From Tribonema minus (taxonomy: Eukaryota > Sar > Xanthophyceae > Tribonematales > Tribonemataceae), in contig JAFCMP010000522.1 in the NCBI GenBank assembly GCA_017506865.1, forward strand, positions 372,001-436,000: a stretch of DNA of 64,000 nucleotides, in the 5' to 3' direction. The position numbers and the translations under genes were made by a program. This document shows positions 25,644 to 62,218 of this stretch, in pieces (the stretch's first letter is position 1; the number at the start of each line of letters is the position of its first letter). A model generated the notes under the pieces. The model was given only the letters and a program-made list of their open reading frames with translations, was not told the origin of the DNA and searched no databases.

Positions 25644-25821
25644 GGTATGTAAGTGTGTGTGAGGCGTGTGTGTGTGCTTTGAGGGCTTTGAGGGCACTTT
25701 CGAGCGTGACTCAGGGCGCCAAAAATATGATTTTGGCGCTCAAATTTTGAACGCGCAAAACGCCGAGCAGGAACATCCGCGCGTGCCAAAGCCAAGCCAG
25801 CCACACACCGGAGCTTGCACG
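25644..25821. promoter_or_regulatory. Bidirectional RNR promoter with clustered E2F-like sites
   Basis: The 178 bp between the two RNR start codons contain a perfect inverted repeat: GCGCCAAAA at 25716-25724, a 6-base spacer, TTTTGGCGC at 25731-25739. A further GCGCAAAA follows at 25753-25760. All fit the E2F/DP consensus TTTSSCGC in one orientation or the other. R2 genes are classic S-phase E2F targets in plants and animals (established). Cell-cycle control of both copies here is inferred. Confidence 0.75.
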
Positions 25822-38442: not shown

Positions 38443-38728
38443 GCTCGCAGGCCGCCGCCAGCGCTAAAAGCCCCGGGCCGGCGGCTGCTTTTTGAGTTTC
38501 AGTGAAGTTGGATTTACACTAGGGCGATGGCCCACCACACTTCAGCACCTTGCGGAAGCAACAGCAGGTGGAATTGAACCTTGGCCGTGAAACAACCAGC
38601 TGGATTGCGTTGCTCTGTGGGGCGTGATCCCTGCGAAAAACTGCGCTGATTGGCATTATAAGGGAGCCACAACTTGAAGTTTTTCAGGTGATGCTAAGCA
38701 AGGGTGGGTTGCGGAAAGGGAAGGAGCC

Positions 38729-41700
38729 ATGAGCTTCGCCGGTCAGCAGGCCCTGGAGCAGCACATGAAGCAGCTGAGGGAGCAGCAACAGGCTCAGCAA
38801 GCGGCGGCTGCAGCAGCTGCTGCTGCTGCCGCAGCGTATGCTCAGCAATACGGCTACGCTGCGGCTAACCCTCAGCAAATAGCTCATCAGCAGTATGCGC
38901 AGGCCTATTATGCACAGCAGCAGCAGCAGCAACAGCAGCAGGTCGTGCAGCAGGTTGTGCAGCGGGTGTACGTTCATCCGCACGCTGCCTATGCCCAGCA
39001 GCAGCAGCAGCAGCAAGTGTACGCCGCTCAAGCCCCTGCTCACCCCTCGCCGCAGCCGGTGCAAGTCTACTACAGGTTGCCGAATGGCCAACTGGCACCT
39101 GTCACACCTGCGGTCGCTGCAGCGCAGCAGCACTACGCCCAGCCTCAGCAGCAGCAAGTGCACCTGCCACAGCAGCCCAGCCATGACATACGATTTGTGC
39201 ACAGCGGTCAGACTGGAGCGACAGGCGCGCCCTCATCGCATGCGCCGCGGCCCGATCAGGTGGTGGAGTCTCATGGCCAGGGCCTGGGATATCATGGGAG
39301 CACCCCTGCTCCCTCAAGCTTCAGCAGGACCAACAGCCTGTCAACCGGTGCGATTCAGGCGACCAAGTCATCAGGGAGGCCCGCGCCCTCTAAAGAGCAG
39401 ATACTGGCGCTGCTGGCGAGCTTCGCCCAGAAGCAGGAGGCGAGTATGAAGCCCTGCATATTTCTGGCACACCTTGCTTTGCTGCTGCAACTTGGTGGTG
39501 TTGGCACGGCTGAATGACTCCTGTGTTTCATTGCCATGTGGGCCTGAAGTCGCTGATCCTTGGCACTACGCTTTCCTCCGCAGCATCTGCCGATCACTGA
39601 GCACTGCGATCTAACCCCCTTCTCTTCACACGCCACTCGGCTGCGCGAAACCGCTGCTGCCGCTGCACACAACAATCCCCATGCACCGAAACCATGACGC
39701 ACAGATAGCGACGACGCCAGCGCTGGGCTGGCCCAAGGGCAACCGCGTCCCTGCGCGTGAGCGGGCGCGCCTCTCCAGCGCCACAGAGAAAAACCTTGCG
39801 TATGTGAAGAACAAGGATACGGAGGAGCGGCGGCGGAGGCTGGGGCTGGTAGACGAACGAGGCCACGACCGCAGCTCGGAGTTCCGGTCCGATGGCCGGC
39901 GGGACTATGACAGCAGGAGAGACTATGATAGGCGCGACGACAGGAGGGGCGGGCGGCCCGAGAATCTCATGTATTCGATGGGAGGGCAGTCGCGGTCGAT
40001 GGGGCTGGGGGCGGCGGCGGCGCGGCAGGCGCAGTGCGGCGTGTATGTCACTGGGCTGCCGCCGACGACGACACAGGCGCAGCTGGAGCAGCTGTTCTCC
40101 GCGCACGGGCCGATACGGCGCGTCAAGGTCTACATGGAAGGTGAGCGCAGCGGTGGCTGAGGCAGTGGCGGTCGTGTGGCGGGTCAGCAGTTGAATACGC
40201 TGCAGTGCAGCTTCTTGTAGGTTTTAACATGAAGTTAGCGTGATCTTGGAAGTACATTGATAAATATGTTTTGGTGTGATGTCTGCTTTTGAATATGAAG
40301 CATTTGGAATAGCTTCATGCAGTATGCCAGTCGAGCTCATACATACATACGGGGGACTCAAACGCACCAGTAGCAGGTTGGCCCTCTTGCCAGTATGCAC
40401 AGTAAGGTGCTCCATTGCTCCACTTCTGGCTCCACTTCTGGTCGGGTGCATTGGTTCTGAGCAGCCCAGATACGCCTTTGGGAGATATCCTTGCATGCAT
40501 CAACACTTAGCGGTAGATGGACTACAGCACGATGCACATTACGAAAGGCGTTCGCAGTGCGTCAGCGCAGTGCAGCCGTCCCCTCCCCTACCCCCCTTAA
40601 CCCCCGCCGCTTCACCATGCGCCACAACTTCAAGGCGGGGCAGACGGCGACAAGGACGCAAGCACCAGGTGCAAGGGCGATGCACTGGTGACCTATGTCA
40701 AGCCCTCGTCCGTGGACACAGCCGTGCCACGCCTCAACGGCCACCAAGTCGCGCCCGGCTTCACAATCAAGGTTACGCAGGCCGACTTCAGCCACAAGGA
40801 GGGCGGCCGCGACAGCGGCGGCAGGGACGAGGGGGGGTATGGGGGGTACGCCGACCTTGCAGCAGAGCCGCAGGGGGGGCGCAGGGGCAGCGAGCGCGGC
40901 AGCGATCGAGGCGGCAGTGAGCACGACGGCAGCGGCGGCGGGGGGCGGGGCGGGGGGTATGCCGACCTGGCCGCCAGCCCTGTCAAGAGCTACGCGGAGC
41001 TCGCTGCGTATGTGCCGCCGCCGCGGCGCGACAGCCGGTCGGGGTCACGGGAGCGCGCGGCAGTTACGGCAGTTACAAAGACGCCACTAGCGCGGCAGGC
41101 GCTGCCTGAGCAGTGCTGCGCGGAGCAGTACCCCGTGGTCATCCTGCACAATGTGTACACTGCGGAGGAGGTCACGGAGAATCCGGACGGGTTCTACTCG
41201 GAGCTGGAGGCGGATATGCTGGGGGAGTGCGCGCGCTTTGGCACTGTGCGCTGCGTCGTGACGCTGGAGGTGAGGCTGGCTTTGGTGATGATGATGCCAC
41301 TAGGTTTTAAGCAGTGGTCATTATGGTGTGCACAGCTCAGGGGGCCAATTTTAGCAGTGTATGTACATACACCAGGCAGCTGGGCTGTCCGCGTGGCAAA
41401 TGCATTTTGTCATGCATACTTGTATCAGTGGATTCCCACAACTACGTTTGCCTGTTGTGGAACTGCGTGGGTCTTCAACTTGAAGTTTAGTTGCCCAGAC
41501 GAACGGGCATGTGCAGTGACATGACTAGCTCGTTGTTTATGTACTTCATCTAGTAGTGTATGCTTCTCTATGTGCTGTGCAGAATGAATGTACAGGGACT
41601 GTGTCCGCTATGTGGACTGCGTCAGCCTTCAACTTGAAGTTTGGTCGCATCTGGTGACTGAAGTAGCTCAGTATTCCTGTACCTCACCTAGTAGTCTATG

Positions 41701-43439: not shown

Positions 43440-45555
43440 GTGTTGACAATGAGCTTGCTAATCGCAATCCGCTGGTAAAGTATGTCCTCCTCTGAATGTG
43501 AACTGTAGACCCCCCTGACCATGGGACTGTGATGCCAGGGTTGTTGTCTACGCTGATTGCCAGAGTGTATTCGCCGCTGAATGCCCTGGTGTTCACGCTC
43601 ACTACCTGCCACACAGGCAAAGAAGACAAAAAACAGTACATGCATGCAGTAGTCCAAGCGTGTGTGAGAGCATGCCATATTGCGTGAATATAAATGGTAA
43701 CATGAATGTCAATTGTAGATTCTCCAAGAGCTTTTCTCCTGCCATCTGAATTCCTCATGCTAGCTGCTTGATGCAGGGCTGCAGCTGGCCACAAGGAGGT
43801 ATGTGTTGATCTGGAAGATGTGTTGCGTGCATGCTGAGTTCCACTCAGATGCGCGCCTGCACGATCTACAATGGTGACAAGTCTGCATGTACAGTGTACT
43901 TTTTATTAATTCTCGCTCAGGGCGCGAAAAAGCCCAGATAATTGGCATCTAGCTGTAAGGAATCTACATGTCGTATGACAGTCTGAAAGTGTCGCAACGA
44001 CAACCACTCAAACGCCGCCGCCGCCAAATGGCATCTCGGGGTCCTCCCCTACGTCCTCCTCCATGTGCCCCCCCCCCCTGGATTCTGCCATGTGTGTCAT
44101 GACACGGCCAGAGTACGCCATGTGGAGCGCTGCCGACAGTGCCGAGCGTAACAGTGTACATCATTCACTCATACAATCCAAACCTTGGCCTAATGAGAAC
44201 GCGACAAGCACCCCAAAAATATGCAACAAGCACTGGCTTCATGGCATGTTGACTAGAGAGTCAGTGCATCGAGCCTTCACAGGCACCTGTGCGCAGCACC
44301 CGGTTTCAGAAGAGCAGATGCACTACACAGCGGAAGGTCTGAGAGTGGTACTGTGCCAGTGACCGTTTAATGTGATAGCAATGTTTTCTATTGCGGTCAC
44401 AAATGCGTATGAGCACACACTTGATGATGTGAGCGCACGAGTTGCATATCATGCACTTTTCATAGAGTCATCACCCCTCAAGCGAAAGTAATTAAGTACC
44501 TTGCGAAGCGAACTTTAATAAAAGTACTGTGCATGACTCACCCCTGTTGCGGCATCGTACATGCTGCTTTGAAGATCCACGTCCACCCAGGGCGACGCCT
44601 TGTCGGTTCTGGCAAACAGAGCTGGCGCGTGCTCCCGGCAGTTCTGGCAGGGGCATGGGCTGAACCTCAGCTGCACATCACGAGCCAGCTCCAACGAGCC
44701 CTCACAAAGCAGCGTTGGCGACCAGATTGCATACCGCCCCCCCGTCGCGGCTGACCACGATGTGGCCCTCATTGTCGGTGCCAGACGTCACGGTGATGTT
44801 TGCTGTCTGTGTAGCTCTGAGGGAGTTGTCTGGTATGACGATGGATACGCCGTACCAGCGTGAGGAATAGACCCGCATTGCGCTACTAGGCTCCAGGTTG
44901 GTCACAAGCACCTCGTCCGGCCGCGTATGCATGCACGACATAATACAATTGTTGTTGGTGTGACCTTGCGATGGTTCAACTGCATGCAGTCAGGGGCAAG
45001 GGCCGGTGGCATGAATGCACTAAGAAGTCAGCACTGTACTAGTAGGTGCCGGATCCTAGCGCAGTGTCATGAATGAAGCAACGGCGCGCAAGTGCCGAAC
45101 ACCCAACACGTTGTAACTTTCAGGCACATTGCCACTGTACTGCTCCTAGAACCAAATAATCACATGACATGTGAAGATGCCCTTGCATGTAGAACTGGAC
45201 GTCACAGGAGCAACAGGCCCGCAAGGCAACCTGGTCCACGAGGGTCAACCGTGTCACAAAGCGGTCGCATTCAAGGGCGTTTTTGAAGTTTGAGTTGCTG
45301 CCCATGAGACCACAGGCAGCCTTCACAGAAAACACAAAGTGTCAACATGGGCACGTGAATTTGTCAAGGCTTGTAGCCATAAAAACTCACGGTTCGGCGC
45401 ACATCCAAGAGGATAAGGATCGGTGGCGACTACGCCAAGAGGAAACTCCATGCACTTCTTACATGCGTCAATGCAATGTTTCGATAAATTGGCCGGGTCG
45501 ACCACGCAAACCCTTCGCTCCAAAGAACAAATGCTGCTGCAACTCAAAGTGAAGA
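43440..45555 (-). CDS. Possible multi-exon Cys-rich secreted protein
   Basis: Several minus-strand segments look coding and have splice-like borders: about 45555-45391 (LSCSSICSLERRVCVVDPAN then KHCIDACKKCMEFPLG, donor GTGAGT), 45320-45231 (AACGLMGSNSNFKNALECDR), about 44920-44542 (YGVSIVIPDNSLRATQTANI ... CEGSLELARDVQLRFSPCPC, donor GTGAGT) and about 43611-43440 (AFSGEYTLAISVDNNPG). Cys-rich and beta-type extracellular composition suggests a secreted or surface protein; no family is recognised. In the third segment the frame must change at a run of seven G (near 44748), which could be a sequencing indel or a real lesion. A truncated retroelement (43900-44150) sits in the presumed last intron. 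The gene model is tentative and the 5' end unplaced. Confidence 0.4.
43900..44150 (-). mobile_element. 5'-truncated RLE-type LINE copy with 9-bp target-site duplication
   Basis: 251 bp nearly identical to the 3' end of the full element (47548-47799). It is flanked on both sides by ACAGTGTAC (43891-43899 and 44151-44159). It encodes the same C-terminal peptide (GGGAHGGGRRGGPRDAIWRR) and ends with TTAATAAAAA read on the minus strand. Direct evidence of a target-primed insertion. Confidence 0.92.
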
Positions 45556-47302: not shown

Positions 47303-47547
47303 TTGGTATCACGCTTGCAGATGCCAATATCTTGGTGCCAAATTCACAGCCTTGTCTTACCTTACCTGCCCTCCCCGATCTTGACTCCATCACGGGTCAC
47401 AACACGTGTACACAGAGGTTTCGCCATGTGAATCATGCTAGGGACAGAGTGGAGTGTATGTCATTCGGTGTTACGCCTTCGGGGCCCCAGAGCAGCCGCT
47501 CCAGAAGTTACATCTGTGAAGCCGCTGCCAACGTATACATCATGTAC

Positions 47548-50500
47548 TTTTTGTTAATTCTCGCTCAGGGCGCGAAAAAGCCCAGATGATTGGCATCTAG
47601 CGGTAAGGAATCTACATGTCGTATGACAGTCTGAAAGTGTCGCAACGACAACCACTCAAACGCCGCCGCCGCCAAATGGCATCTCGGGGTCCTCCCCTAC
47701 GTCCTCCTCCATGTGCCCCCCCCCCCCTGGATTCTGCCATGTGTGTCATGACACGGCCAGAGTACGCCATGTGGAGCGCTGCCGACAGTGCCGAGCGTAA
47801 GCGCGCCAGGGCGATGCCCTTGAGAGCTTTAGGGCGCGCTCCTCCGGGCACTGACATCCTGCTGGCATACTCCGTCGCCACAGCCTCCAGCAGCTTCCGC
47901 CCCTGCTCCCCGATGCTGCCAAATGACCCTATTGCCAAAGTGGCAAGTTTGTAGCAATTCTGATCATAATGACCAGAATAGTGGGTAGTCTTGGCGGCCT
48001 CTTGGTCGCGGCAGCATCGCTCGGGGTCTGCTGCAGTCTTCGCCGCCCGCGACGCCACCTGTGCCTCGAAGCAGGTAACGTCCACCATGAGCGGTAGGTG
48101 GCGTGTCGGGTCGTCGTAGCCGGTCACCGGGAAGGCGTCGGCAGGCAGCACGATGTCCATCCTGCGACTCCCCGGCGGCCCGGCGGACCCCAGAAACGGC
48201 GTGTAGTCCTCGTCCACCAGTCCCGTTTTGAGGTATTGCCGCAGGATGCGCTGCGTGGCCCTCTTGACGCTATTGTGGACGATGGTGTCGTGCGCCTTGA
48301 CGCGTGGCGCTTGACACAGCCGTGCATGCAGGGTGCCGCCCGGCGACTTCCCGCACAGCTTGCAGCCTGCCGTCTGCTCCTCTACTCCGATGGCGCGTTT
48401 GACGGCCAGCTGCCAGGATAGGCCATCGAACAAGCCGTTGTGGAGTACATGGGCTCGTTGAGGAATGCCATGCCGATCGAGTGCATGTGGCGCTGCGACC
48501 GGAATCGAGCAAGTGCTTGCGTGCGTTGCGTGCCCTGCGGCAGCTGTTGCAGGCCGCCTCCACCTTATCTGCAAGCTCGGTAGCGACGGCATCTGCAAGC
48601 GCACTCTGATTGGGGCGCTTCAGGCTACACTGCAACTGCAGAGCACTGGCGTCAAGTACGCAAGCAGCATCCGCACCAGTGCCACCACCTGCTGTCGGCC
48701 GCAGCGGCGGCTGCTGCGTAGGTGGTTGCTGCTGCAGTGGCGTTAGCGCTGGTGGCAGTATATGTTCCAGCTTGTCACCTGTTGCTGCACGTAGAGATGT
48801 GGCAGCTGTGGCGATCGTCCGCATGAGGGGCAGGCGCGCCACCTCTGCTGCTGCTGCGCCTTGTAGCATTACTGGTGTGGAACGCGCAGCGCCTGCATTG
48901 ACGGCTGCCGCTGCTGCGTGCGCTGGTGCTGCAGCTGTGCCGCCTGCCGTTGCTGCTGCTGCCAGTGGTGTTGCTGCTGCCGCAGGTGTTGGTGCAGCAC
49001 CTGCCGCATTGGCCGCTGCCACCGCCATTGCCGCTGTCGCAGCCGGCACGGTTGCGGCGCCGCCTGCCGACGCTGCTCCTGTTGCAGGTGCTGCAGCAGC
49101 CCTTAGGCTAGTAGGGCCTGTAGCAGCTGTGTTGCCTATGCCCGCAGCCGCTGCTGTTGATGCTGCAGTTAGTGATGCCGCCGAGGCCACTTGAGGTGCA
49201 ACATGTGCTGCCGCTGCTGCAGCAGCCTCTGATGCTGGAGCAGCTGCTGCTGCCGCCGCTGCTGCTGCCGCCGGAGTAGTTGCGCCGTGCGCCGCCGCTG
49301 CTGCTGCTGCCGCTGGTGCCGCCTGTGCTGCCGCCGCGGCCCCTGATCCAGCGGCAGCTGCGTCGTGTGTTGCCGGAATGGCTGCGCCATAAGCGCGGCC
49401 AGCCGCTGATGCAGTTGCCGCTGCCGGAGCGGTCGCGCCTCCACTGGCAACCGCCGCTGCCGCTGTAACAGTTGCCGCTGCTGATGCTGCTGGTGCTGGT
49501 GCTGCTGCCGCTGCTGCCGGTGCCGCTTGTGTTGCCGCATCCTCAGCAGCGTTGTCTGCAGCCGCTTGAGGAGCCGCCTGCTGCAGCACCCCCGCCCATC
49601 CAGAGAGTGCTGGTTGCAGCGCTTGCAACGTGCCCGCCACATACGCAGCATCAGCGATGTCGCAGGCGCTGGTAATGCCAAGGCCGCCATGCCGTGTTGG
49701 GAGTTGCGCTTGCTGTAAGGCTGGGCCGTGCGCTGCCAGATGGAAGTGGGCCCCACTTTGCTCAAACTGGCGCCAGGTCTGGCCTGGTGGCTGCAGGCCC
49801 ATTGAGTGCTCAAGCACCCACTGCGTGACCCGATCCCACTCCTTGGCGGCTGGCGCTGTCTGCGTAGTGGGAATGGTGAGCAGGCAGTACGTCATGCGAG
49901 GCACCTCGCAGTAGCGCAGTAACCTGAACATAGCCCTCGGAGATGTCAGGCGCGCGCATCGCTCTGCAAATCGAGCCCCTGCCCCGCCTGCACCCGCTTC
50001 CCTGCGCAGCCATGCGTCCACAAAGCTGCTGTGGCCCACCGGCACCCCCAGCAACACAGCTCCACGGTTTTGATTTTCATCCGTATCCCCCACTAGCTGA
50101 ACGCCCAGCTGCTGCAGCAGTTGCCGCTCGTGGTCTGTCACCACATGCCCCCTGCCAGGCAGCGCGCGTGACTTGGTGAGGTTTAGCTCCAGCCCCACCT
50201 CCGCAAAGTGTTGTTTGAGCTGCGCCACCGCCTGTATGTCATCCTGAGTCAGCGTGCAAGCGCCTGTTCGGACGTTGGCATCGTCCATGTAGGCGCCCAT
50301 CCGCCTCCGCGCGCGCTGCGCGGCCGCCGCCTCATTGAACCGTTTCAAGCACTGAGCAATGGCGCCGCAGAAGAGCATCGGTGCCGCGGGGTACCCCTGC
50401 TTAAACCCGCGCTGAGACATGATGATGCGCGTGGAGCCGTCGACGTGCTGGAACAGCAGGCGTGGCTGAGTGCGAACGTATGTGCCGATGAAGTAGTTGA

Positions 50501-52324
50501 GGAAGTCCGGCAGCTGTGCTGCTACCCATTCCGCTGCCGCCAGGACGAACATCATGTTGAAGGCATTCTTGAGGTCCAGCATGAACTGCCAGTGACCGAG
50601 CTCATACGCGAGTTTGCCGGCCATGGCCGCTTTCTCCGCTCCTGCTGAGACGGCTACCCCATACTGCCCGTCTGGCTCAAGGAGCTCCGCCAGGAAGTCT
50701 TTGCGGTCTGCCACGCACACCGAAGTGCATAGTCGCTGCAGCACCTCGCCGCAAACGATGGGCCGCTGCTTAGCTGTACCATCTTCCTGTTGTTCTGCAA
50801 GTGGCGTCAGGCGCCCCGCGCCATGCAACTGCCAGAAGGCATCCGGCAGCCGCGCAGCCTCCCGCATAACGGTCTGAAGCCACCGTGTGAGGACAGCAGC
50901 AAACTCATGCCGTCCCCAGCTTGTGCGTAGCGCATCCTGCAGGTGGCTGTAGCGCAGCCCCGATGGGCCTGCTCCACTGTAAGGGCTTGCTCGCTGGATG
51001 AGCTTGGCAACCGTCTCTGGCTCAATTCCCTCCCCCTGTAACAGGCTGAGTTCTGCTGGCATGTCGGCTGCTTTCGCCACAAGCTGATCAACCATGCCGG
51101 ATAGCTCATGGAGTTGTTCCCCTGGCGCAGCGGGGGGGTGTTTGGACTGCATGGCGGCAAAGCAGTCATCATCAGGTATCGCCACCGTTTTGGGCTGAAG
51201 GAAACGCGCTGCCTGCTGTAGCCCCCCCCGTGTGCCCATGCACTGTAGGACGGAGGCGTTGATCGCTGCCTCCGTTTGCTGGCGCGCGCGCCAGCGCCGG
51301 TGCGCACGCGCGTGTGCGAGGAGCGCTGGCACCAACCGGTCAAGCTCACCGCGTGCCAATATTCTGATTCTGTCGGAGCGAGTGATGCCAGGTGCGCCAT
51401 CGGTGGAGGTGATGAGTGATGGCATGAGGTGGTGTAGAATCGTGGATCTTTGCAGTCGCTGCACCCGCCCTGCGGAATCTGGCTCCCGCGCCGCATTGAC
51501 GAACATCGTCATTGTGTGTGCCAACAGATGTGTTGCTGCGTTCTCCAGTGCAGCTCCCACATAGCGACGATTGCGTGGTCTAGCAAGGCTTCTAGTTGAC
51601 GCGAACTGCAGCTTGCACAGCTCATCGAGGCTGATGCTGTCAAGCACTGCTGCAACTGCGGGGGTTGAGATGGTCCACGTGAAAAGCCCACCTGCCCCAC
51701 CTGCTGCGCCTGCAGGGCCTGGCGCTGCCGCTGCTGTCGCCGCACCTGCCGCTCTGGGGCCCCCTCCGCCGCCGCCGCGGCCGCCACGACCACAGCTTCG
51801 TCCGCCGCTGTCGCTGCTGCGACCGCTGCCACGGCCACCGCGGCCGTTTTGAGTTCGCGCGCCACTGCCGCTGTTGCTAGCACCGCCGCTGCGGCTGCTG
51901 GCATCACTGCTGCGGCCGTTGCCAGCGCCGCTGTCCTTAGTACCGGCTGCACTGCCGCCGCCGGCACCGCTGCTGCTGCCGCCTCCGGTTCTGCTGCCGC
52001 TAGTCGCTCTGCTACTGCTGATGTCTGCATCATTGCTGCCGCTGCGAACGCGTCCTCCATTGCCACGTCCGCGCCCTCCACTGCGACCCCGACCCCCTCG
52101 TGTAGCACTGCTGCCCCCGCGTTCCGGCCTCTTTGAGCTGCCAGAGGAGCTGCTGCCACCAGCCTGAGCAGCAGGTGCCTGCTGCGCGTGCGCTGGTCCC
52201 TTTGCGTAGGGGTTGCCGATGGGTGTGCCCGCCGGTTGCTGCTGTGGCAGCGACGTGGTAGTTGTTGCCGTCGATGCATCAGGTGCTAGCGGTGCTGCTG
52301 ATGCTGTTGTTGACAATGTTGCCG
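47548..52324 (-). mobile_element. RLE-type (R2-like clade) non-LTR retrotransposon, nearly full length
   Basis: 4.8 kb on the minus strand. One long frame holds an RGG-rich N-terminus, reverse transcriptase, an unusually long Ala-rich spacer, and then a CCHC plus PD-(D/E)xK-like endonuclease in a shifted frame. The 3' end is a short A/T tail (TTAACAAAAA). TCATGTAC occurs at both borders (47540-47547 and 52325-52332), a likely 8-bp target-site duplication; the start ATG overlaps it, so the copy may be 5' truncated. Two truncated relatives lie within 5 kb. Confidence 0.88.
47612..48604 (-). CDS. Retrotransposon C-terminal CCHC zinc finger and restriction-like endonuclease, frameshifted
   Basis: Overlaps the end of the reverse transcriptase frame; the protein switches frame near 48480-48500. 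Seen: CKLCGKSPGGTLHARLC (CxxC...H....C finger), then HDTIVHNSVKRATQRILRQY, then RRMDIVLPADAF ... LPLMVDVTCFEA and later AAKTTHYSGHYDQNCY. The spaced Asp (MDIVL), Asp (VDVTC) and downstream Lys/Tyr fit the PD-(D/E)xK endonuclease that follows the CCHC finger in R2, R4 and NeSL-like elements (family knowledge). It ends with a basic Gly/Arg tail (GGGAHGGGRRGGPRDAIWRR). The frame break is either a mutation that inactivates this copy or a programmed shift; the first is more likely. Confidence 0.8.
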   Translation of the reverse strand: MRLQMPSLPSLQIRWRRPATAAAGHATHASTCSIPVAAPHALDRHGIPQRAHVLHNGLFDGLSWQLAVKRAIGVEEQTAGCKLCGKSPGGTLHARLCQAPRVKAHDTIVHNSVKRATQRILRQYLKTGLVDEDYTPFLGSAGPPGSRRMDIVLPADAFPVTGYDDPTRHLPLMVDVTCFEAQVASRAAKTAADPERCCRDQEAAKTTHYSGHYDQNCYKLATLAIGSFGSIGEQGRKLLEAVATEYASRMSVPGGARPKALKGIALARLRSALSAALHMAYSGRVMTHMAESRGGGAHGGGRRGGPRDAIWRRRRLSGCRCDTFRLSYDM

Positions 52325-52328
52325 TCAT
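48270..52328 (-). CDS. Retrotransposon polyprotein: reverse transcriptase part
   Basis: 1352-codon open frame. Residues about 1-200 are Gly/Ser/Arg-rich with RGG repeats (RGGRGRSGGRGRGNGG), a likely RNA-binding region. Reverse transcriptase follows: SGAGPSGLRYSHLQDAL, RPIVCGEVLQRL, motif A MLDLKNAFNMM (near residue 584), RGFKQGYPAAPMLFCGAI, and the catalytic YMDD box in RRMGAYMDDANV (near residue 680), then LELNLTKSRAL and a thumb (LEHSMGLQPPGQTW). From about residue 930 to 1220 the protein is almost entirely Ala with Pro, Thr and Gly. The last ~80 codons are out of frame with the conserved C-terminal domain, which continues in the frame of 47612-48604. It synthesises cDNA at a nicked target (established for the class). 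Confidence 0.9.
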   Translation of the reverse strand: MTATLSTTASAAPLAPDASTATTTTSLPQQQPAGTPIGNPYAKGPAHAQQAPAAQAGGSSSSGSSKRPERGGSSATRGGRGRSGGRGRGNGGRVRSGSNDADISSSRATSGSRTGGGSSSGAGGGSAAGTKDSGAGNGRSSDASSRSGGASNSGSGARTQNGRGGRGSGRSSDSGGRSCGRGGRGGGGGGPRAAGAATAAAAPGPAGAAGGAGGLFTWTISTPAVAAVLDSISLDELCKLQFASTRSLARPRNRRYVGAALENAATHLLAHTMTMFVNAAREPDSAGRVQRLQRSTILHHLMPSLITSTDGAPGITRSDRIRILARGELDRLVPALLAHARAHRRWRARQQTEAAINASVLQCMGTRGGLQQAARFLQPKTVAIPDDDCFAAMQSKHPPAAPGEQLHELSGMVDQLVAKAADMPAELSLLQGEGIEPETVAKLIQRASPYSGAGPSGLRYSHLQDALRTSWGRHEFAAVLTRWLQTVMREAARLPDAFWQLHGAGRLTPLAEQQEDGTAKQRPIVCGEVLQRLCTSVCVADRKDFLAELLEPDGQYGVAVSAGAEKAAMAGKLAYELGHWQFMLDLKNAFNMMFVLAAAEWVAAQLPDFLNYFIGTYVRTQPRLLFQHVDGSTRIIMSQRGFKQGYPAAPMLFCGAIAQCLKRFNEAAAAQRARRRMGAYMDDANVRTGACTLTQDDIQAVAQLKQHFAEVGLELNLTKSRALPGRGHVVTDHERQLLQQLGVQLVGDTDENQNRGAVLLGVPVGHSSFVDAWLRREAGAGGAGARFAERCARLTSPRAMFRLLRYCEVPRMTYCLLTIPTTQTAPAAKEWDRVTQWVLEHSMGLQPPGQTWRQFEQSGAHFHLAAHGPALQQAQLPTRHGGLGITSACDIADAAYVAGTLQALQPALSGWAGVLQQAAPQAAADNAAEDAATQAAPAAAAAAPAPAASAAATVTAAAAVASGGATAPAAATASAAGRAYGAAIPATHDAAAAGSGAAAAAQAAPAAAAAAAAHGATTPAAAAAAAAAAAPASEAAAAAAAHVAPQVASAASLTAASTAAAAGIGNTAATGPTSLRAAAAPATGAASAGGAATVPAATAAMAVAAANAAGAAPTPAAAATPLAAAATAGGTAAAPAHAAAAAVNAGAARSTPVMLQGAAAAEVARLPLMRTIATAATSLRAATGDKLEHILPPALTPLQQQPPTQQPPLRPTAGGGTGADAACVLDASALQLQCSLKRPNQSALADAVATELADKVEAACNSCRRARNARKHLLDSGRSATCTRSAWHSSTSPCTPQRLVRWPILAAGRQTRHRSRGADGRLQAVREVAGRHPACTAVSSATRQGARHHRPQ

Positions 52329-52332
52329 GTAC

Positions 52333-52358
52333 CTACACAGAGAATTAATAAAAAGTAC
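52333..52358 (+). mobile_element. Tiny 3'-end fragment of the same LINE in opposite orientation
   Basis: GAGAATTAATAAAAA at 52340-52354 is the extreme 3' end of the LINE family, here on the plus strand. It is flanked by GTACCTACACA (52329-52339) and GTACTTACACA (52355-52365), which differ by one base, as expected for a target duplication. It gives the big element a false terminal inverted repeat with 47544-47562. Confidence 0.55.
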
Positions 52359-53950: not shown

Positions 53951-54554
53951 AGCGGCAGGCTGGTGCACTAGACTGCGCGACGGCTTTGAAGTAGCTTGTT
54001 GCATAGACGTCACCATACGTGACAGCTCATGCCCCGGGGCCCTCCCGCCTCCGTCAGGCTCAGGGGGGCGCGCGCGATGTGCAGCGCGTGCTTGAATCGG
54101 CTTCGTAGTAAAAGATAGACACATAGTAATTAAGTAGTCTCAGGGGCCTTGGACCCCACTACATACACCCTATTTTCCGCAGCTTTTCACCACTTCGGCG
54201 CTATGTCATGCGACACCCAAGCGCTGCTACACGCACTCGCCGAGCAGACTCTGAGCTTGCAGGGCAGCTACCGTGTGACAATCTTGCGCAGCTCGTTGCC
54301 TTCTGGCGCCGCCGCACCTCCCTCGCGCTACAGCGCGCACTCACACGTGTCGTGATCGAAAACTTCAAGTTGTTGAACTGGAACGCGGTCATTGCCCCTG
54401 ATGGCGACATCAGCGCTTAGCGCCGCAGCGCACTGTTGCAAGTGCCGCGGCCCTCGCCGGCCAGCGCCGAACCGCTGGCCCCTCCGTAGATATAGTTATT
54501 GCAAGCCAGATTTATCGTGTGCTCAGCCCATGCGGTCCAGGACATAATGTACAA

Positions 54555-54780
54555 CTTCAACAAGCAGCAGCAGCACTGGCGGCAGCAGCAGCAGCGGCAG
54601 CAGCAGCAGCGGCAGCAGCAGCAGCGGCAGTCGCATCAGCAGTAGCAGCAGCAGCAGCAGCAGTGGCAGCAGCTGCAGCAGCAGCAGCAGCAGCAGCAGC
54701 TTGAGCAGCAGCAGCAGCAGCAGCAGCGGGCGGCAGCAGGTTGTGCAGCGGGTGTACGTTCATCCGCATGCTGCCTATGC

Positions 54781-54812
<32 letters not shown>
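54555..54812 (+). repeat. CAG-rich tract containing a copied piece of the Tat-SF1-like exon 1
   Basis: 54561-54726 is an interrupted CAG/CGG tract. 54737-54802 matches 38951 onward in exon 1 of the Tat-SF1-like gene almost perfectly (one C/T difference), including the non-repetitive GTGTACGTTCATCCGCA and CTGCCTATGCCCAG. The frame encoding QVVQRVYVHPHAAYAQQQ is preserved. A perfect CAG run follows to 54812. Confidence 0.9.
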
Positions 54813-54814
<2 letters not shown>

Positions 54815-55065
54815 TGTGCGCCCAGGTGGTCAATGCAACGCATTTCGACCTGTACGACAATGATTGGTGGTCAATGCAACGCATTTCGACCTGTACGACA
54901 ATGATTGTCGTACAGGTCGCAATGCGTTGTCGTACAGGTCGAAATGCGTTGCATTGACCACCTGGGCGCACAGCAGCACAGTCGTACAGGTCGAAATGCG
55001 TTGCATTGACCACCAATCATTGTCGTACAGGTCGAAATGCGTTGCATTGACCACCTGGGCGCACA
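54815..55065. repeat. Palindromic cluster of a ~45-bp dispersed unit
   Basis: Six copies of a unit starting TTGTCGTACAGGTCGAAATG and ending ACCACCTGGGCGCACA: minus 54815-54860 and 54866-54901 (short); plus 54905-54927 (short), 54928-54973, 54981-55013 (short) and 55020-55065. Arms 54815-54899 and 54981-55065 are a perfect 85-bp inverted repeat around an 81-bp centre. The cluster interrupts a CAG tract (CAG runs resume at 55065). Single copies stand at 60111 and 60906. Confidence 0.93.
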
Positions 55066-55099
55066 GCAGCAGCAGCAGCAGCAGCAGCACTGGCAGCCG

Positions 55100-56735
55100 C
55101 AAGGCCGCATGCTCCACAGCTGTACGACGCAGCAGCATTCCATTTGTCCAGGCATTCACCAATACGCTTCTTGCTGCGCGATTTACGCAGGTTAGCACAC
55201 AACTTTACGAGCAGAGCACATGCGGCAATCCACCCCCCGGGGCCCCCGTATACTATGCCTTTAAGTTAGTAAGCGGTTACATCTATTCACGAGTTTTGGG
55301 CCACTGTGATGGCCCCGCTCTTAAAAGCAAATTCGTTTCATGGCGATCAGAAGTCGGTTGTTGGTGCTGAGCATCAGAAATAGAGACTGCCATGGCTTCA
55401 GCTGCTCTGAGCAAAAAACTTGAAGCTTGACAATGTGCACACTTGGCCGCCAGGGCAGCCGTCCCCTTCTGGGGTGCCAGGATACCACACTGTCATTCTT
55501 CAGTTGGTTCCGCTTCAAACGGCCAGGTTCGAATCCTGTTCGAGGCAGGTTCTTTCCTTTAAAGCAATTGCCCAGACGGCCACCCATTAGTCACATGATT
55601 CTCTGTGAGAACCCCAGAACATGAAATTTACCTTACCTCAGAGTCTCAAGCTACACCGATCCGATCTGTCACTGGCGAATCCTGGACCAGTGGCGACAAA
55701 GCGGCAGTAACCGCTGCAGGATCCGAAATGGGCCGCGCCGACCTGCTGTGCATCCAGGCGTATCGGCGCCTGTACGACATCAGTTTGCAGCAGGTGGGGT
55801 GTGATATGAGCTGGGTCACTGCGCTATAGGCAGCGTGCAACAGTGTCTTTGTTATTCCTTTCGCAAGTGTGTTGTAATTCGTATAAGTCTTCGCTGCACT
55901 GTCATCTGCATCGTCATGCACGCGCTTAGGCCATCTTGCAGGCTGGAGCAGCGACGGCGCCGCGTACATTGCCTTCTTCTCTTTGTGCCTCCTTGTGACT
56001 TGGCAGCCTGCAGGCAGCCTGCAGGGCGACAGTGGAAAAAGTGCATGTACGTTGAAGTGTTGGTGCCAGTGGAGCCTCGCGTTCTTTGCTGCAGCAGCTG
56101 CTGCGCTCAACATCATGCGGAGCTCCAGCGTATGGCGATCACTGCTCAGGGAGCCTGAGATAGTGGGTCTGCCAAGTTGAACAACGAGCGAAGACACCTG
56201 TACTGCAGCAGTTGTGCTTGCCCAGGCCATGTTAATGTGCAGGCAGGTGGCACAGCCAGTGTATAGTATGCTTTCCGTTCATGCTTAGGTGTACTAATCA
56301 GGATATGCCTGTTCAACGATTGAGGTTCTAGTAGCATCATGGCGCGCCCTTGGCAGAACTTGAAGCATGATGAAGACTGTATCAGACATAATGCTGGGCA
56401 ATCGCATGGCGGTCGATGACCCCAGGGTGTTCCTACATGATCATCGCAGTGCAGGCTTCACACAGTTGTTTACATGCTGCTTCAAGTCTGTCCTAATCAT
56501 GCTGTTGTTTAGCAGCATGTTGTGCTGCATGCAAGTGTTCGGCCCCTTGGGTGGAAACGTGCCTGTAGTCTACGTGTGTGTGTCACAGGTGCTGCGTTGG
56601 CGGACATCTGGACTTGCTGTGATGGAGCGGGCGTGAGGAGTCTACACGCAGTCAAGCTCAAGTCGCTCATCATCATCTACAACTGCTCGATTCGAGGAGG
56701 GAGCTTCGAGTTGATCTGCGAGCTGCGTGCACGGC
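55100..56735. other. Stretch without supported gene
   Basis: ORFs here lack motifs and consistent splice structure. A tRNA-like B box (GGTTCGAATCC at 55527-55537) preceded by CAGTTGGTT suggests at most a tRNA-derived relic. Nothing else is recognised. Confidence 0.35.
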
Positions 56736-56739
56736 GCGG

Positions 56740-57130
56740 AGGGTGCTCAAGCGACTTGCTGAGCGCTGTCGAGCCTGGGGCGTAGCCGGGGGGCGTGTTC
56801 AAGCGAGTTGCTGAGCACTGCCAACACGAGGGCGGACTCAAACCAGTTTCTGAGCACTGCCCCAGGCCCGGAGGCGGATTGCGGACTAAGCTATTTGGGA
56901 CGCACTCATGCGAGCTGCTGAGCGCTGTCAACTTGACGGGCCTGGGCGGACTGGGGTTGCATAGTATGGCCTAGCTACGGCATGCAAAGCAAGTTGCTGA
57001 GCAGTGCCAAGAGCTTGGGGGCGTACTGTGGGAGTCAGGGCGGTCGAGCATGCGAGCTGCTGCGCCGCGCGGAGTGTGCGGTGCTCCTCACGTTGCTGAG
57101 CACTGCTACGGCCTGGAGCAGGGGACGTGG
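56740..57130 (+). repeat. Irregular tandem array around GCTGAGCACTGCC
   Basis: GTTGCTGAGCACTGCC or close variants recur at about 56755, 56807, 56845, 56912, 56992 and 57090, each followed within 10-20 bases by a G-rich GGGGGCG/GGGCGGAC block. Two more copies of 'GCAGTGCCAACATGTCGGGG' occur at about 60245 and 60319, so the module extends into the neighbouring terminal-repeat element. Confidence 0.65.
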
Positions 57131-57433
57131 CCATTGTAGCCGCCGACTTGGGGGGGGGCGTCATGGGGGGATGGGTCGTCAGCCTGGTTGGTAGCGCGCG
57201 GGAACTCGGGCCGTATGCCATGAGACTGACCGCAGCCGAACTTCTAGCCTCTTTCCTGTAAAGTTCAAGGAAATGCGGGGAGATTAGGCGCCAGGTGTAT
57301 CTTTTTCTTCAGCAGGTGCATAGTCCCGTCTACCAGCGCGCACCTTAAGGCACCGCCAACATTATGGTGACCTTTTAGGGGTTGGGGAGGGGTTATACCC
57401 CTATAACAGGGCGTGCATGACACGGGGTGTAGT

Positions 57434-57513
57434 GGGGGGTTGCGCGAGTGCCTCAAGCGGGAGCGCAGTAGTGTGGGGGTTGCGTGAGTGCCTCAAGCGG
57501 GGGCGCAGTAGTG
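57434..57513 (+). repeat. Two 40-bp direct tandem copies
   Basis: GGGTTGCGYGAGTGCCTCAA followed by GCGGGRGCGCAGTAGTGTG repeats twice back to back with two to three differences. Confidence 0.85.
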
Positions 57514-58536
57514 TGGAGTGCTGGTTTGCATCGCAAGTTGTGCGTTTGTTTGCTAGTGTAGGCAATTACCGGGGCGTATGTAAGTGGTGCAGCCTCTTTG
57601 ACGGGTGCAGCATTAGAGGCATATAGCCACACAATGGCAGTACTCCCCTCTGTTATTTCAGTACCATGACGTCAACATATGGTGCTGCTCTGCCGCTGCC
57701 GGTGTCGCCGCCACCGTGTAGCCGCAGCCGCCGCCTAGAAGGGTAGTAGTATCTGCTTGTGATGCGCAATCAGGTGTTGCAATCGCATCGACAACACTTA
57801 GCGCGCAGTAAAGTGGTGCCAGGCGTGCTGTGTAGTGAGGCAACCCTAGGTGGAGCAGTAGTAGAAGTAGGGCTTGCATTGCGAATGCCTTTTGTGCAGT
57901 AATCAGACACGACTTTAACCTTCAACATGGCACGGCTTCTTCTGCTTCTACCTGTTTAGCCACGCTTGCATATCAGGGTGATATTGCACTTGGGGAGGGC
58001 GCTCCGGTCCACCTCCCACGGCACCAGGCAGTGGGCATTTCCGGCTGTTTCAAGTCAAGGTTGAGACTGGGTCTCACACACTTTCACCCTCTGTGGTTGG
58101 CACACCACCACAATGGCTGATCTCGGCAGGTGCTGACCTGTCCAGTACTATTTCGGATAGTGCTCCAACACACAGCTTTCGCTGTTTCCGTCGGCACCTC
58201 TGCTGCACGCAACCTGAGGTGGCTGGGGTTCAAACTTCTGCACCATTAGCTGTGCCGTCTACTGGCGTCCTTAAGGGGCCACTTACAGCACTCGGTGGAT
58301 CCAGGGGCTTCAGAACCAGCCACACACGGAGTTCCGGTCAGCAGCAGCAGCTGTAAACGGCGACAGCAGAGTTTTCGGGATTTCTATAGCTGGGGGCGCG
58401 CTCGTCGTAAGGCGCCCTTCGGCTCTCCACTACTTAGCAGCAGCAGCAGCTGCTGCTTCAGCATACTGCCACCTTCCTGGCAGCACGTGCTCATCTACTA
58501 TTCAGCAGCACCTTAACACCTTTTACTGGAAGCAAA

Positions 58537-60003
58537 ATGGTGGGGGGGAAACGTGCTGTTGCGAGTCGGGCTGAAGCGCTTAGCGTGTACACCCGGCTGC
58601 TCAAGAAGGGACGTTGGGGCTCAGCCTCGGAATGGTTTTACAGCACCGGAGACAGGGATGTGGGGGAAAAGCTTGGTGAGGTGCTCAGCGCAATGACCTA
58701 TTTTGTCTCTGCGGAGGTCAAACTGCAGGAGGAGCGACGCCGGCTCAGCACGTGCCTTGCAGAAGCCACACAGGGAGTCGCTGAGGAGCAGCAGAGAGTC
58801 AGCATCCTGCAAGAGCGGCTACAGCAAAGCAAGAAGGCTGAGGCAGCAGCGCAGCGAGAGCTGGAGCGGCAATGCGCTGCTGATTCAGCAGCGCTGTTGC
58901 AGCTGCGGAGTCGGGTGTCGGAGCTGGAGGAGGATGCTGCGAGAATGGCTACAGTGCTGGCGTCGGCGCGCGCAGCCGATGGCAACGCGGGCACCAAAAG
59001 CTGCGCCAACAACAGCGGCGGCGTATGTGCCGCACGCTCAGCGCCGACGGAGGCGCTTCCAACATCGCAAGCATGCAGCAGTGGCGCGCTTGGCAGCAGC
59101 GGCACTGCAGTCGTGCTCTCAGCGCCGACAACAGCGGCGCATGCAGCTGTGCCTGCATGCGACATCGGCGGGCACAACAGCGGCGGCACCGCAGCTGCGC
59201 TTTTGGCCCCGGCGACAGCGGCGCTTTCACCGCTGCGCGCACGCAGTGGCGCGTGTGACAGTGGCGACACTGCGGCCCCGCTCCCAGCGCGCGGCAGTGG
59301 CGGCGGCGACAGTAGCGGCGGCGCGCGCGGCGGCGGCAGCGGCGGCGGCTGCAGCGGCGCACGCGACGGCGGTAGCGGCGGAGCACGGGGCGGCAGCGGC
59401 GGCGCGCGAGGCGGCGCGCTTGGCAGCAGCGGCGGCGCGCGCGGCGGCGGCAGCAGCGGCGGCAGCAGCGGCGCACGCCGCGGCGGTAGCGGCGGCGCGC
59501 GGGGCGGCAGCGGCGGCGCGCGAGGCGGCGGCAGCGGCGCACGCCACCAAGGCGGCGGCGGCGGCGCACGCCACCAGGGTGGCGACACGGGTGCGGCGAG
59601 CTCGGTGACGGCGACGGTGCCGATGCAACAGCGCGCCAGCATCAGCGCTGCGCGGCGCAGCATGCGCGCCGCAGGCAGGAGCTTGGGACGGTTGCTCTCG
59701 CGGCGGCAGCAGAAGCGGCGGGAGTACTGGTCGGCGCATACGCCTGAGGAGCAGCAGCGCCTCCGCGACTGGCAGGCGCGGCATAAGGCGCTGCACAGGC
59801 GGCATGCAAGCAAGGAGAGGCGTGGCGATGGCGCGCAGCCGCCAGATGCAGCAGCAGCGGGGAGGCGCGGCGGTGCTTACACTAGCACAGCATTGTCTCC
59901 CACCAGCAATCAGGCTGTGCTTAGCGCATATTGCGCTGACATTTGCGAGACACAGACGGCAGCAGCTCTTTTGTGCGCCATGTGTCTTACCAGTGCATCT
60001 TGA
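58537..60003 (+). CDS. Coiled-coil protein with Gly/Ala/Ser/Arg-rich domain, unknown
   Basis: 488 residues, intronless, starting MVGGKRAVASRAEALSVYTR at the first ATG. Residues about 1-60 are a compact basic/aromatic domain (LLKKGRWGSASEWFYSTGDR). About 60-150 form a coiled coil (LQEERRRLSTCLAEATQGVA, RVSILQERLQQSKKAEAAAQ, RSRVSELEEDAARMATVLAS). About 155-365 are low complexity with many GGARGGGS-type repeats. The remainder is basic (RRSMRAAGRSLGRLLSRRQQ, EEQQRLRDWQARHKALHRRH). The architecture suggests a self-associating nucleic-acid-binding protein, as in retroelement gag/ORF1 proteins, but no family is recognised. It lies centrally between 258-bp direct repeats. The long minus-strand ORF over it is a shadow caused by GC-rich codons. 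Confidence 0.6.
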   Translation: MVGGKRAVASRAEALSVYTRLLKKGRWGSASEWFYSTGDRDVGEKLGEVLSAMTYFVSAEVKLQEERRRLSTCLAEATQGVAEEQQRVSILQERLQQSKKAEAAAQRELERQCAADSAALLQLRSRVSELEEDAARMATVLASARAADGNAGTKSCANNSGGVCAARSAPTEALPTSQACSSGALGSSGTAVVLSAPTTAAHAAVPACDIGGHNSGGTAAALLAPATAALSPLRARSGACDSGDTAAPLPARGSGGGDSSGGARGGGSGGGCSGARDGGSGGARGGSGGARGGALGSSGGARGGGSSGGSSGARRGGSGGARGGSGGARGGGSGARHQGGGGGARHQGGDTGAASSVTATVPMQQRASISAARRSMRAAGRSLGRLLSRRQQKRREYWSAHTPEEQQRLRDWQARHKALHRRHASKERRGDGAQPPDAAAAGRRGGAYTSTALSPTSNQAVLSAYCADICETQTAAALLCAMCLTSAS

Positions 60004-60110
60004 GCGGTTTGGCTCATGGGGGCGCTTGTTTGCAGGTTCACTGTTGAGCCTGCACGTTTAGACACCACACCGCTTGCATACCATCAGCAGTGTAGTGTCC
60101 GGGGGCGATT

Positions 60111-60155
60111 GTCGTACAGGTCGAAATGCGTTGCATTGACCACCTGGGCGCACAA
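60111..60155 (+). repeat. Solo copy of the ~45-bp dispersed unit
   Basis: Full-length, essentially identical to the copies at 54928 and 55020, preceded by CCGGGGGCGA and followed by AACCCACCCGCC. It lies inside the 57831-60905 unit, 3' of its ORF. Confidence 0.93.
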
Positions 60156-60905
60156 ACCCACCCGCCCACCCTTAGTTTTGTTTCAGCTGTACATGCGCAC
60201 TTCTTTTGCGTGTGTTACACAAACGCTGGGGGGGGGGATAAGTGCGCAGTGCCAACATGTCGGGGGCGTACATACTACAGTAGTTGTAGAATGGTGGTGC
60301 GCTTGCTTGCGATGGTTGCGCAGTGCCAACATGTCGGGGGCGCATATAGCAGCAGAGCCAGTTGCTTGCTCGTTAGTTGTCTGTTGCAGCGTTAGGTCAT
60401 GTGTTGTTTTGCAACAATGTAGTTGCCACTCCAGCCAGACGCGCCACAGTCTTGCTGAGACTTGTTGGTGGCAGAGGGTTGCTGGTATATGCCATATGCC
60501 CGTGTTATTTGAGAGTTTCGGCGGTCATGGATGACAGCCGTGCTTGCATTGCATTTTGTAGCAGTATTGCATGTGTAGTGTCTAGGGCGCCTCACATGAG
60601 TGCATGGCTTCCGACTTGTGGAGTGGAAGAGCCATGCAGGGGGCGATTGTAGTGAGGCAACCCTAGGTGGAGCAGTAGTTGAAGTAGGGCTTGCATTGCG
60701 AATGCCTTTTGTGCAGTAATCAGACACGACTTTAACCTTCAACATGGCACGGCTTCTTCTGCTTCTACCTGTTTAGCCACGCTTGCATATCAGGGTGATA
60801 TTGCACTTGGGGAGGGCGCTCCGGTCCACCTCCCACGGCACCAGGCAGTGGGCATTTCCGGCTGTTTCAAGTCAAGGTTGAGACTGGGTCTCACACACTT
60901 TCACC

Positions 60906-60951
60906 ATTGTCGTACAGGTCGAAATGCGTTGCATTGACCACCTGGGCGCAC
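60906..60951 (+). repeat. Solo copy of the ~45-bp dispersed unit at an element border
   Basis: Starts at the base immediately after the right 258-bp repeat ends (60905), so the unit abuts the border of the terminal-repeat element exactly. Followed by GCTGTATCTGC. Confidence 0.93.
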
Positions 60952-61830
60952 AGCTGTATCTGCTGAGGATTTGCATTGCTTATTTGCGGTAGGCCGGGCT
61001 TGCAGTAGCTCCTTGCACGCTTCACTGTTATTTGATCCAGACGGTCGATGACGTCATGGATGGGGGCGTATGTCGTGAAGAGGCCGCCATTAACGTGCAT
61101 TAGGATGATAGATGTGTGTTGGCAGCACGTAGCACGCCTTGAGGTGGCCAGGGCTCAATTGGAGAGTTGTGCCCGTATTTGTCAACAGTCACCTCAAGTT
61201 GAATGGCAGCAGCGCTCAGCTGCATTTGTGCTTGTGTTCGCCTAATGATCAGAAACCGATCTACATGCTTTAAGAAAGGCTTTCGTCTGCTTTTGCACCG
61301 CCACGTTTACCGGCGCCATGGCACTTGGTATCTGGAGAGAGTAGTTGCAAGCGCCGCTGCTTTCTCAAGGCAACATTCGCAGGCTTTAGGCTGTAACTGG
61401 AGCAATGGAGCAGTTCCTCACTCCTGAAGAGTCAACACTGTGAGCTGGGACACCACCCAGTCACCACACTGCGAAATCGCGGTCGGTCGCAACTTGCTAT
61501 CGGTTAACCAATTGTCACACACAGTGCTCGCCTTAAAGATTCAAAGTGGCATTGGAGGGACCAAGGTAACTTGCATTGAATGCCCAGGGGGGGGGGGGAT
61601 TTGGTATCCTGGCACCCAGAAGGGACCGTCTAGGGGCCGCCGGGCCCTGCCAAGTCACTGTGGGGCTACCCTGCCACTGGCAAGTGGGGGGGGGATGACC
61701 TATACTCCAGCATATGCTGATCAGCGGGGTCCATTTGCAGAGAATGTGTTGCATGCAGTTTGCCGCGTGTGCAGCACATTTGCATGGTGCAGCACAGGAT
61801 GCATACAAGGCGGTACGGGAAGTGACAGGA
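60952..61830. other. Stretch without supported gene
   Basis: Contains a poly-G run near 61588-61600 and another near 61686-61693. ORFs are short and featureless. Confidence 0.35.
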
Positions 61831-62218
61831 TTGAATTGCGAAAAACGGGACCGGTCTGAATTGGAAAACGGCTGCCAGCGTTCGCTGCTGCATTTGAACA
61901 TGATGTTGAAGTTATTAGGTGGAGGGACCAGTGTTGAAGTTGGTTAGGATACCATGATGAGCACTGAGCCATTTTCAAACTTCAATTTGGAGTTGAACTT
62001 CTGTACTCAGCCAGACTTCACAGTTGAAGTTAAAGTTCAAGTCCAAGTTCAACATGGTACATCTCAAGATCCTGAGCGCAAAAAAAAATCTTTCTTCCAT
62101 TTATTTACTTCTAGGCGTGAATATCACACCCATGTCATCACAATTGAGAGAAGTCCATTTGCAGAGTTCACCCGCATGGGTCCCGTTTTGAATACAGGTC
62201 CCGTTTTTCGCAATTCAA
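61831..62218. repeat. 22-bp perfect inverted repeat, 388 bp apart end to end
   Basis: TTGAATTGCGAAAAACGGGA then CC at 61831-61852, and its exact reverse complement at 62197-62218. Between them is a run of TTCAAGTTGAAG-type sequence (61975-62055). A direct GTCCATTTGCAGAG lies at 61728 and 62154. It may be a decayed MITE-like unit. Confidence 0.65.

Follow-up and report, generated by a model that had tools for sequence, protein, structure and literature searches.

A palindromic insertion in Tribonema minus that looks like two end tags of a copia-type element without the element itself

The palindrome at positions 54815-55065 of the window (the whole stretch of 64,000 nt of Tribonema minus DNA that was analysed) resembles an insertion of two 46-base end tags from a copia-type element, the element itself being missing. 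Judging from its sequence context, the tag, a 46-bp unit here called U, is probably an end module (a 'mini-LTR' of 45 bp reading TG...CA) of a Ty1/copia family, fragments of which would be integrated together with the element's cDNA or instead of it. In the usual view, an LTR retroelement enters the genome as a single linear DNA bearing one LTR at either end. The joined ends, the target duplications and the inner border of the unit described below suggest, rather, that integrase joins two separate pieces at a single target site and that the remaining gap is sealed by the host.

Palindromes as insertions bounded by U

The arms of the palindrome (54815-54899 and 54981-55065) are 85 nt each and 100% complementary, exactly as an earlier note, made from the letters of this DNA, had described them, and lie 81 nt apart; over the whole 251 bp, 184 positions are self-complementary, the centre not being palindromic. 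The core of U is present six times, twice on the minus and four times on the plus strand, with a mismatch in one copy. The mixed orientation of six copies recorded in the earlier note therefore stands, but only three are full 46-mers (54815-54860, minus; 54927-54972 and 55020-55065, plus). The left terminal unit presents its outer end TGTGCGCCC to the target and the right terminal unit its outer end GCGCACA. Between them lie partial units serving as filler at 54866-54901 (36 nt, minus strand), 54904-54929 (plus strand, one mismatch) and 54981-55014 (34 nt, plus strand), together with the internal full unit at 54927-54972, which is followed by GCAGCA. This hexamer is templated filler; the same six bases form the right target flank, which is a CAG repeat. 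The insertion, two inverted units with no element body, sits in a CAG tract, and its flanking 4-mers (GCAT and GCAG) match at three of four bases; a related CAG tract at 38.9 kb of the window is uninterrupted. The tract at the palindrome adjoins a partial duplicate (54704-54801) of a glutamine-rich ORF located at 38678-39517. When positions 54000-62000 were compared with Rfam, 20 matches were returned, all below gathering scores and mostly CAG-repeat or hairpin-like, and no ribozyme was among them.

Two further full copies of U in the window are identical to the unit, as the earlier note had all but stated, their positions being 60109-60154 and 60907-60952 rather than 60111 and 60906; 100 shuffles gave 0 matches. 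The search of the whole genome that it had recommended was carried out on 158 Mb of sequence, the window lying in contig C519, and found U (TTGTCGTACAGG...GGGCGCACA) at 220 places with ≤3 mismatches, the reversed control giving none. In short loci, U stands inverted at both ends of an insert, GCGCACA outward, between 4-bp direct repeats. For the analysis of duplications, 123 genomic U ends among the matches listed were used, comprising 29 of the 74 rows of one flank listing and 94 of the 100 of a second (the best 100 of 162 places); the rows left out (45 and 6) are cassettes or filler copies. An exact 4-bp duplication was seen in 26 of the 29 nearest inverted U-U pairs listed and was absent from three, as compared with a shuffled mean of 1.3 and a maximum of 6. 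Once repeats were removed (C330 and C324 repeat the flanks of C136 and C102), 24 of 27 sites retained it. Terminal inverted repeats with target duplications, by which MITEs and foldback elements are recognised, were thus found in 26/29 pairs and at 24/27 sites. A separate scan of all extracted loci compared four kinds of end, scoring matching 4-mers at the true position and at five offsets. It gave 45 matches for U with U (some nested), five for U3 with U, one for the TG side of the unit with U and none for U5 with anything, while the five control offsets yielded 0, 2, 6, 0 and 2 matches over all kinds. Loci L083, L092, L095 and L098, as read, have no exact duplication, and in L080 and L103 the duplication matches only if the left end lost one base.

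The palindromes are insertions, not target sites. The sites differ from one another, and when the joined flanks of nine of them were compared with the genome, close uninterrupted copies of the target were found elsewhere for two: site 4 (L068) has two such matches at 99% over 144 bp (C320, C201), and site 2 (L060), which lies within a repeat, several at 85-96%. Two other sites had uninterrupted matches near 78% only, and for five of the nine no uninterrupted copy was found in the genome. The idea of U as a site for recombination or integration, if a target is meant, is accordingly not upheld, while its description as the end of an unknown mobile element is borne out by the joining of its GCGCACA side to target DNA with 4-bp duplications. 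The concern that the unit might always lie inside a longer repeat with ends elsewhere proved half right: one solo copy does, and elsewhere the unit is the end. Taken as a whole, the earlier interpretation is partly supported.

It is not always the GCGCACA side that faces outward, a rule that was rejected on account of one locus, L052 (the same place as L009; positions 853-1068). Here a GCGCACA end and the TGTCG side of a unit, TGTCGTAC, share the duplication CATG; read from the TGTCG side, the insert passes through U, AA and most of the C tract that follows U in the source element, and then turns. Either side of the unit can therefore end up against target DNA, which is what a mini-LTR with its plus strand begun at PPT1 (the internal polypurine tract described below) should show. 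Among the loci extracted, joining through the GCGCACA side is far commoner than through the TGTCG side.

The interiors of 43 inserts (42 picked for a matching duplication, plus the window copy) were compared. A shared interior, as in MITE or foldback families, is not the rule here: 41 of the 43 are distinct, two pairs of inserts sharing one, and most consist of pieces of U patched together in either orientation. The arms are between 14 and 50 long, with a peak at 47 (28 of 86 arms) and none above 50. Counting filler copies, 87 distinct full units lie outside the cassette; in 76 of them TTG is preceded by A, and the base ahead of that A varies. From this border and the arm lengths it follows that the inner side, ATTGTCG, behaves as a physical end, sometimes trimmed. 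On its inner side U continues into scrambled U copies, LTR DNA or captured DNA, the joint often falling at the A before TTG. In three of 15 internal end copies (the window, L014 and L086) the filler continues into 5-6 nt of the site's own flank, and the filler of L103 likewise copies the flank of its own site; some of the filler was therefore copied when the ends had already been joined to the target. Copying of flank into filler is as in templated end joining. In one locus instead (L039, 892-4212), two U ends with the 4-bp duplication ACAA enclose ~3.2 kb of a different element that is RT-like by eye.

The element that carries the unit

The interval 57831-60952 is an LTR element, a family member that lacks copia domains. 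It lies between target duplications GCTG (57827-57830 and 60953-60956) and comprises a left LTR, LTR_A (TGTAGTGAGG...CACCACCACA, 57831-58112), a probable primer-binding site (58114-58131), called on its position, TGG start and 18-mer, and a 488-codon ORF (58537-60003) with no Pfam match. Then come an internal polypurine tract, PPT1 (GGGGGCG, 60101-60107), the internal copy of U (60109-60154), a G-quadruplex motif 2 nt past U (GGGTGGGCGGGTGGG, 60157-60171, minus strand), and a second tract, PPT2 (GGGGGCG, 60639-60645). PPT2 stands before a 3′ LTR copy (60648-60905) that lacks the last bases and shares 99.6% identity with the left LTR. A further copy of U (60907-60952; position 60906 is the A of ATTG) forms the integrated right end; all these features except the quadruplex motif are on the plus strand. 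The earlier note had correctly seen one solo copy abutting a terminal repeat, since U at 60907 comes one A after the truncated LTR copy; the other solo copy (60109-60154) is internal to the same element. The window holds three G-quadruplex motifs with 1-nt loops; of the other two, one (5372) is a G homopolymer and one (34593) a G-rich run.

A longer relative between the same LTRs, L106, encodes copia gag, pre-integrase, integrase core and RVT_2 domains, with the integrase (rve, 535-631) upstream of the copia-type reverse transcriptase (RVT_2, 920-1165), the Ty1/copia order; part of the DNA of the 488-codon ORF is also present in L106, downstream of the polyprotein. LTRs with TG...CA, a probable PBS and a PPT were found as well, and U belongs to this Ty1/copia family. 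A Penelope-like or LINE origin of the 2.8-kb repeat was considered and given up in view of the LTR ends, PBS, PPT and copia polyprotein. Tandem arrays of the 2.7-2.8 kb element with shared LTRs occur at L043, L044, L045 and L050. In C190, two ends with the duplication GCCG lie 21 kb apart, and in L038 (3620-3846) inverted LTR copies have a long run of A between them, reminiscent of a captured poly(A) end.

The cassette GGGGGCG-A-U-AA-CCCACCCGCCCACCC is present in both the window element and L106, the latter having CACG for CACA. A second PPT copy thus lies inside the element, GGGGGCG|A preceding both U and the 3′ LTR. Both the LTR (GGGGGCG|AT|TGTAG) and the unit (GGGGGCG|AT|TGTCG) start two bases after the tract, and U reads TG...CA, so the layout is PPT-AT-[TG...CA]-AA-G4, with a strong G-quadruplex motif on the minus strand two bases past CA. 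An apparent excess conservation of U within this first family was dropped as selection bias, exact units having been chosen; in four copies found by another route, U differs at 1, 1, 1 and 3 of 46 positions, roughly as much as the flanks do. One cassette, L110, has a broken C tract, and a sub-variant of U present in it (GCGTCGCAT) also occurs in the inserts L005 and L103.

A diverged second family (L107-L109) has the same cassette with a 49-bp unit. Relative to the first family, the PPT is kept, the C tract is identical at 17/17 bases, and the downstream sequence at 40 of 63 aligned columns. A pattern search gave 244 ends of the family-2 unit; among the 67 matches listed with letters, 65 are non-cassette, and six of eight inverted pairs among the matches listed have a duplication (shuffled mean 0.73, maximum 4). 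Locus L104 is an insertion with family-2 units as ends and the duplication GTTG. The units of both families are predicted to fold alike as a hairpin, with one compensatory change in the stem and weak z-scores (-1.0 to -1.5 as RNA, -0.3 to -1.5 as DNA), and the prediction allows PPT1 RNA to pair with the C tract.

Partners were sought for 36 left LTR ends, namely those of the 84 LTR starts listed that have no preceding PPT (two, in C9 and C35, join unit pieces, not plain target; two in C539 share a flank; C274, a repeat of C35, was left out). For 18 of the 36, a right end formed by U and flanked by the same 4 bp was identified: ten by the listing, with the same four bases on the same strand, and eight by reading, namely the window element (GCTG), L106 (TAAC), L054 (TATC), L075 (CTCT), L042 (GCGT), L045 (ACTG), L076 (GCGC) and C63 (GAGC, after repeated GGCGCACA). 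The other 18 had no partner among the matches listed (U ends at 100 of 162 places). No U5 end among the matches listed (22 of 98 U5 rows kept) matched any of the 36 left ends. Wherever a partner could be found for a left LTR end, that partner was U. Since those 22 rows show that LTR U5 ends followed by varied bases exist, U5 probably also serves as an end in certain copies or in sister elements.

The position of the LTR-U joint is irregular: in the window element the LTR breaks off before its end, and elsewhere the joint lies 0 to ~18 nt beyond that end. In L054, the LTR is followed by TGGCGATCTCGGCAGGAC (18 nt) and then U, where the element's own PBS instead reads TGGCTGATCTCGGCAGGT. The same 18-mer comes after the LTR in 11 of the 98 rows listed and looks like a copy of a tRNA 3′ end; L065 extends further into tRNA-like sequence. 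This tRNA-like 18-mer before U suggests that U was joined to plus-strand strong-stop DNA. A 22-mer of the presumed tRNA 3′ part has four occurrences in the genome, one being the L065 copy, and ARAGORN found no tRNA gene in the window.

Other repeats and ORFs were recorded in the window. Divergent overlapping ORFs at 24609-25739 (minus) and 25663-26772 (plus), which look like ribonucleotide reductase small subunits, include an inverted repeat of 857 bp at 91%. A 258-bp direct repeat (43895-44151 and 47543-47800, 98.45%) has ends unlike TG...CA LTRs, and a long ORF at 48270-52358 (minus) shows, by eye, reverse-transcriptase-like sequence and long alanine runs.

A candidate mechanism and its rivals

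What is read from the DNA itself is that the ends are joined to the target with duplications, that U is paired with U or U3, that the unit has an inner border, and that some copying followed the joining. The mechanism we infer behind them would begin with reverse transcriptase starting plus-strand DNA at PPT1, at the same GGGGGCG|A position as at PPT2; synthesis would usually stop at the G-quadruplex 2 nt past U, and the short product would be released as a double-stranded fragment. Integrase would then put two ends (U and U, or U3 and U) into one target, and the two inward-facing free ends would be sealed by templated host end joining, giving scrambled filler. How the second (minus) strand would come to end at U is the weakest step. 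Put more broadly, and tentatively, the PPT, the 45-49 bp mini-LTR and the G-quadruplex stop might mass-produce loose integrase ends with which the U3 end of the body cDNA pairs in trans, a possible mode of split-end retrotransposition. The U5 end of the body cDNA would keep its tRNA-primer sequence, the U3 end would integrate with a loose end, host end joining would finish the insertion, and loose ends paired together would produce the many bodiless palindromes. In yeast, a Ty1 reporter whose template strand carried a G4 motif 42 bp upstream of the PPT gave an extra, shorter cDNA, a band that did not increase with a G4 ligand or without Pif1 (PMC8074290).

Among the other explanations, the one that takes U for the terminal inverted repeat of a cut-and-paste DNA transposon (a MITE or foldback element), the interiors being scars of interrupted gap repair and the copia element having captured the unit, would account for the inverted ends, the 4-bp duplications and the junction filler. 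It appears quite improbable given that 41 of 43 interiors are distinct, that the arms vary yet pile up at 47 bp with none above 50, and that U and the LTR U3 end have one duplication in common; besides, two diverged families have the unit at the same position between PPT and C tract, and L104 has family-2 ends. An artefact of assembly may be set aside almost entirely: palindromes are error-prone in assemblies, yet matching target duplications occur at 24 of 27 independent listed sites on many contigs. Somewhat less improbable, though still unlikely, is template switching, whereby plus-strand strong-stop DNA jumps to a minus-strand U template, one cDNA is integrated normally, and the U-U inserts are snap-back products. 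Junctions that fall on the LTR end or slightly beyond it, as far as the tRNA-like 18-mer, would fit such jumps, as would the hairpin predicted for the unit in both families; a jump need not land at one base, however, yet 76 of 87 borders are A|TTG, and some filler copies the target flank, which means that copying continued after joining to the target.

A serious rival, even if we are inclined to doubt it, concerns the weak step directly. It retains the split-end idea and differs in how the fragment is made: the cassette would be a second primer-binding module, an RNA on the C tract priming the minus strand after U, so that a strong-stop product would form without arrest at a G-quadruplex. Both strands ending at U would thereby be accounted for, the C tract is conserved at every base between the families, and PPT1 RNA is able to pair with it in the predicted fold. 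Yet the sequence after U is not a TGG-type site, and the fold z-scores reach only -1.0 to -1.5.

Should the proposal of integrated U fragments be true, 'foldback' palindromes would gain a source that needs no DNA transposase, the inserts would preserve natural examples of filler that end joining had copied from the target site, and an internal polypurine tract with a G-quadruplex would acquire a testable use. In the literature searched, mainly open-access, no description was found of integration ends supplied by an internal mini-LTR. The mechanism would be new if the fragment step holds.

Comparison with known systems

The family resembles Ty1/copia elements in its gag, in an integrase placed before the RT (RVT_2), and in its TG...CA LTRs, probable PBS and PPT. 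It differs from them in that the right end, where a partner was found, is a 46-bp internal module and not U5, and in carrying an extra internal cassette of PPT, mini-LTR and G4. Lentiviruses have a central polypurine tract with a central termination sequence, and Ty1 has an internal PPT; a second internal plus-strand start with a downstream stop would be the counterpart here, except that in this case arrest would set free an end ready for integrase, to be inserted as a piece of its own. Inverted ends, target duplications and, for the most part, the lack of a coding interior characterise foldback elements and MITEs. The inserts share with them the inverted ends, the duplications and a mostly noncoding interior, but their interiors are mostly unshared and their ends match a retroelement cassette. 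As with TRIM (on which see PMC4717578) and SMART elements, these are very small products of LTR-retroelement machinery; the U inserts, however, have two identical, inverted ends in place of a direct LTR pair. A parallel to the cassette's layout is the Ty1 G4 reporter (PMC8074290), which likewise has a template-strand G4 motif close to the PPT and yields shorter cDNA. That reporter is engineered and its motif inhibitory, whereas the cassette in T. minus is natural and would feed integration.
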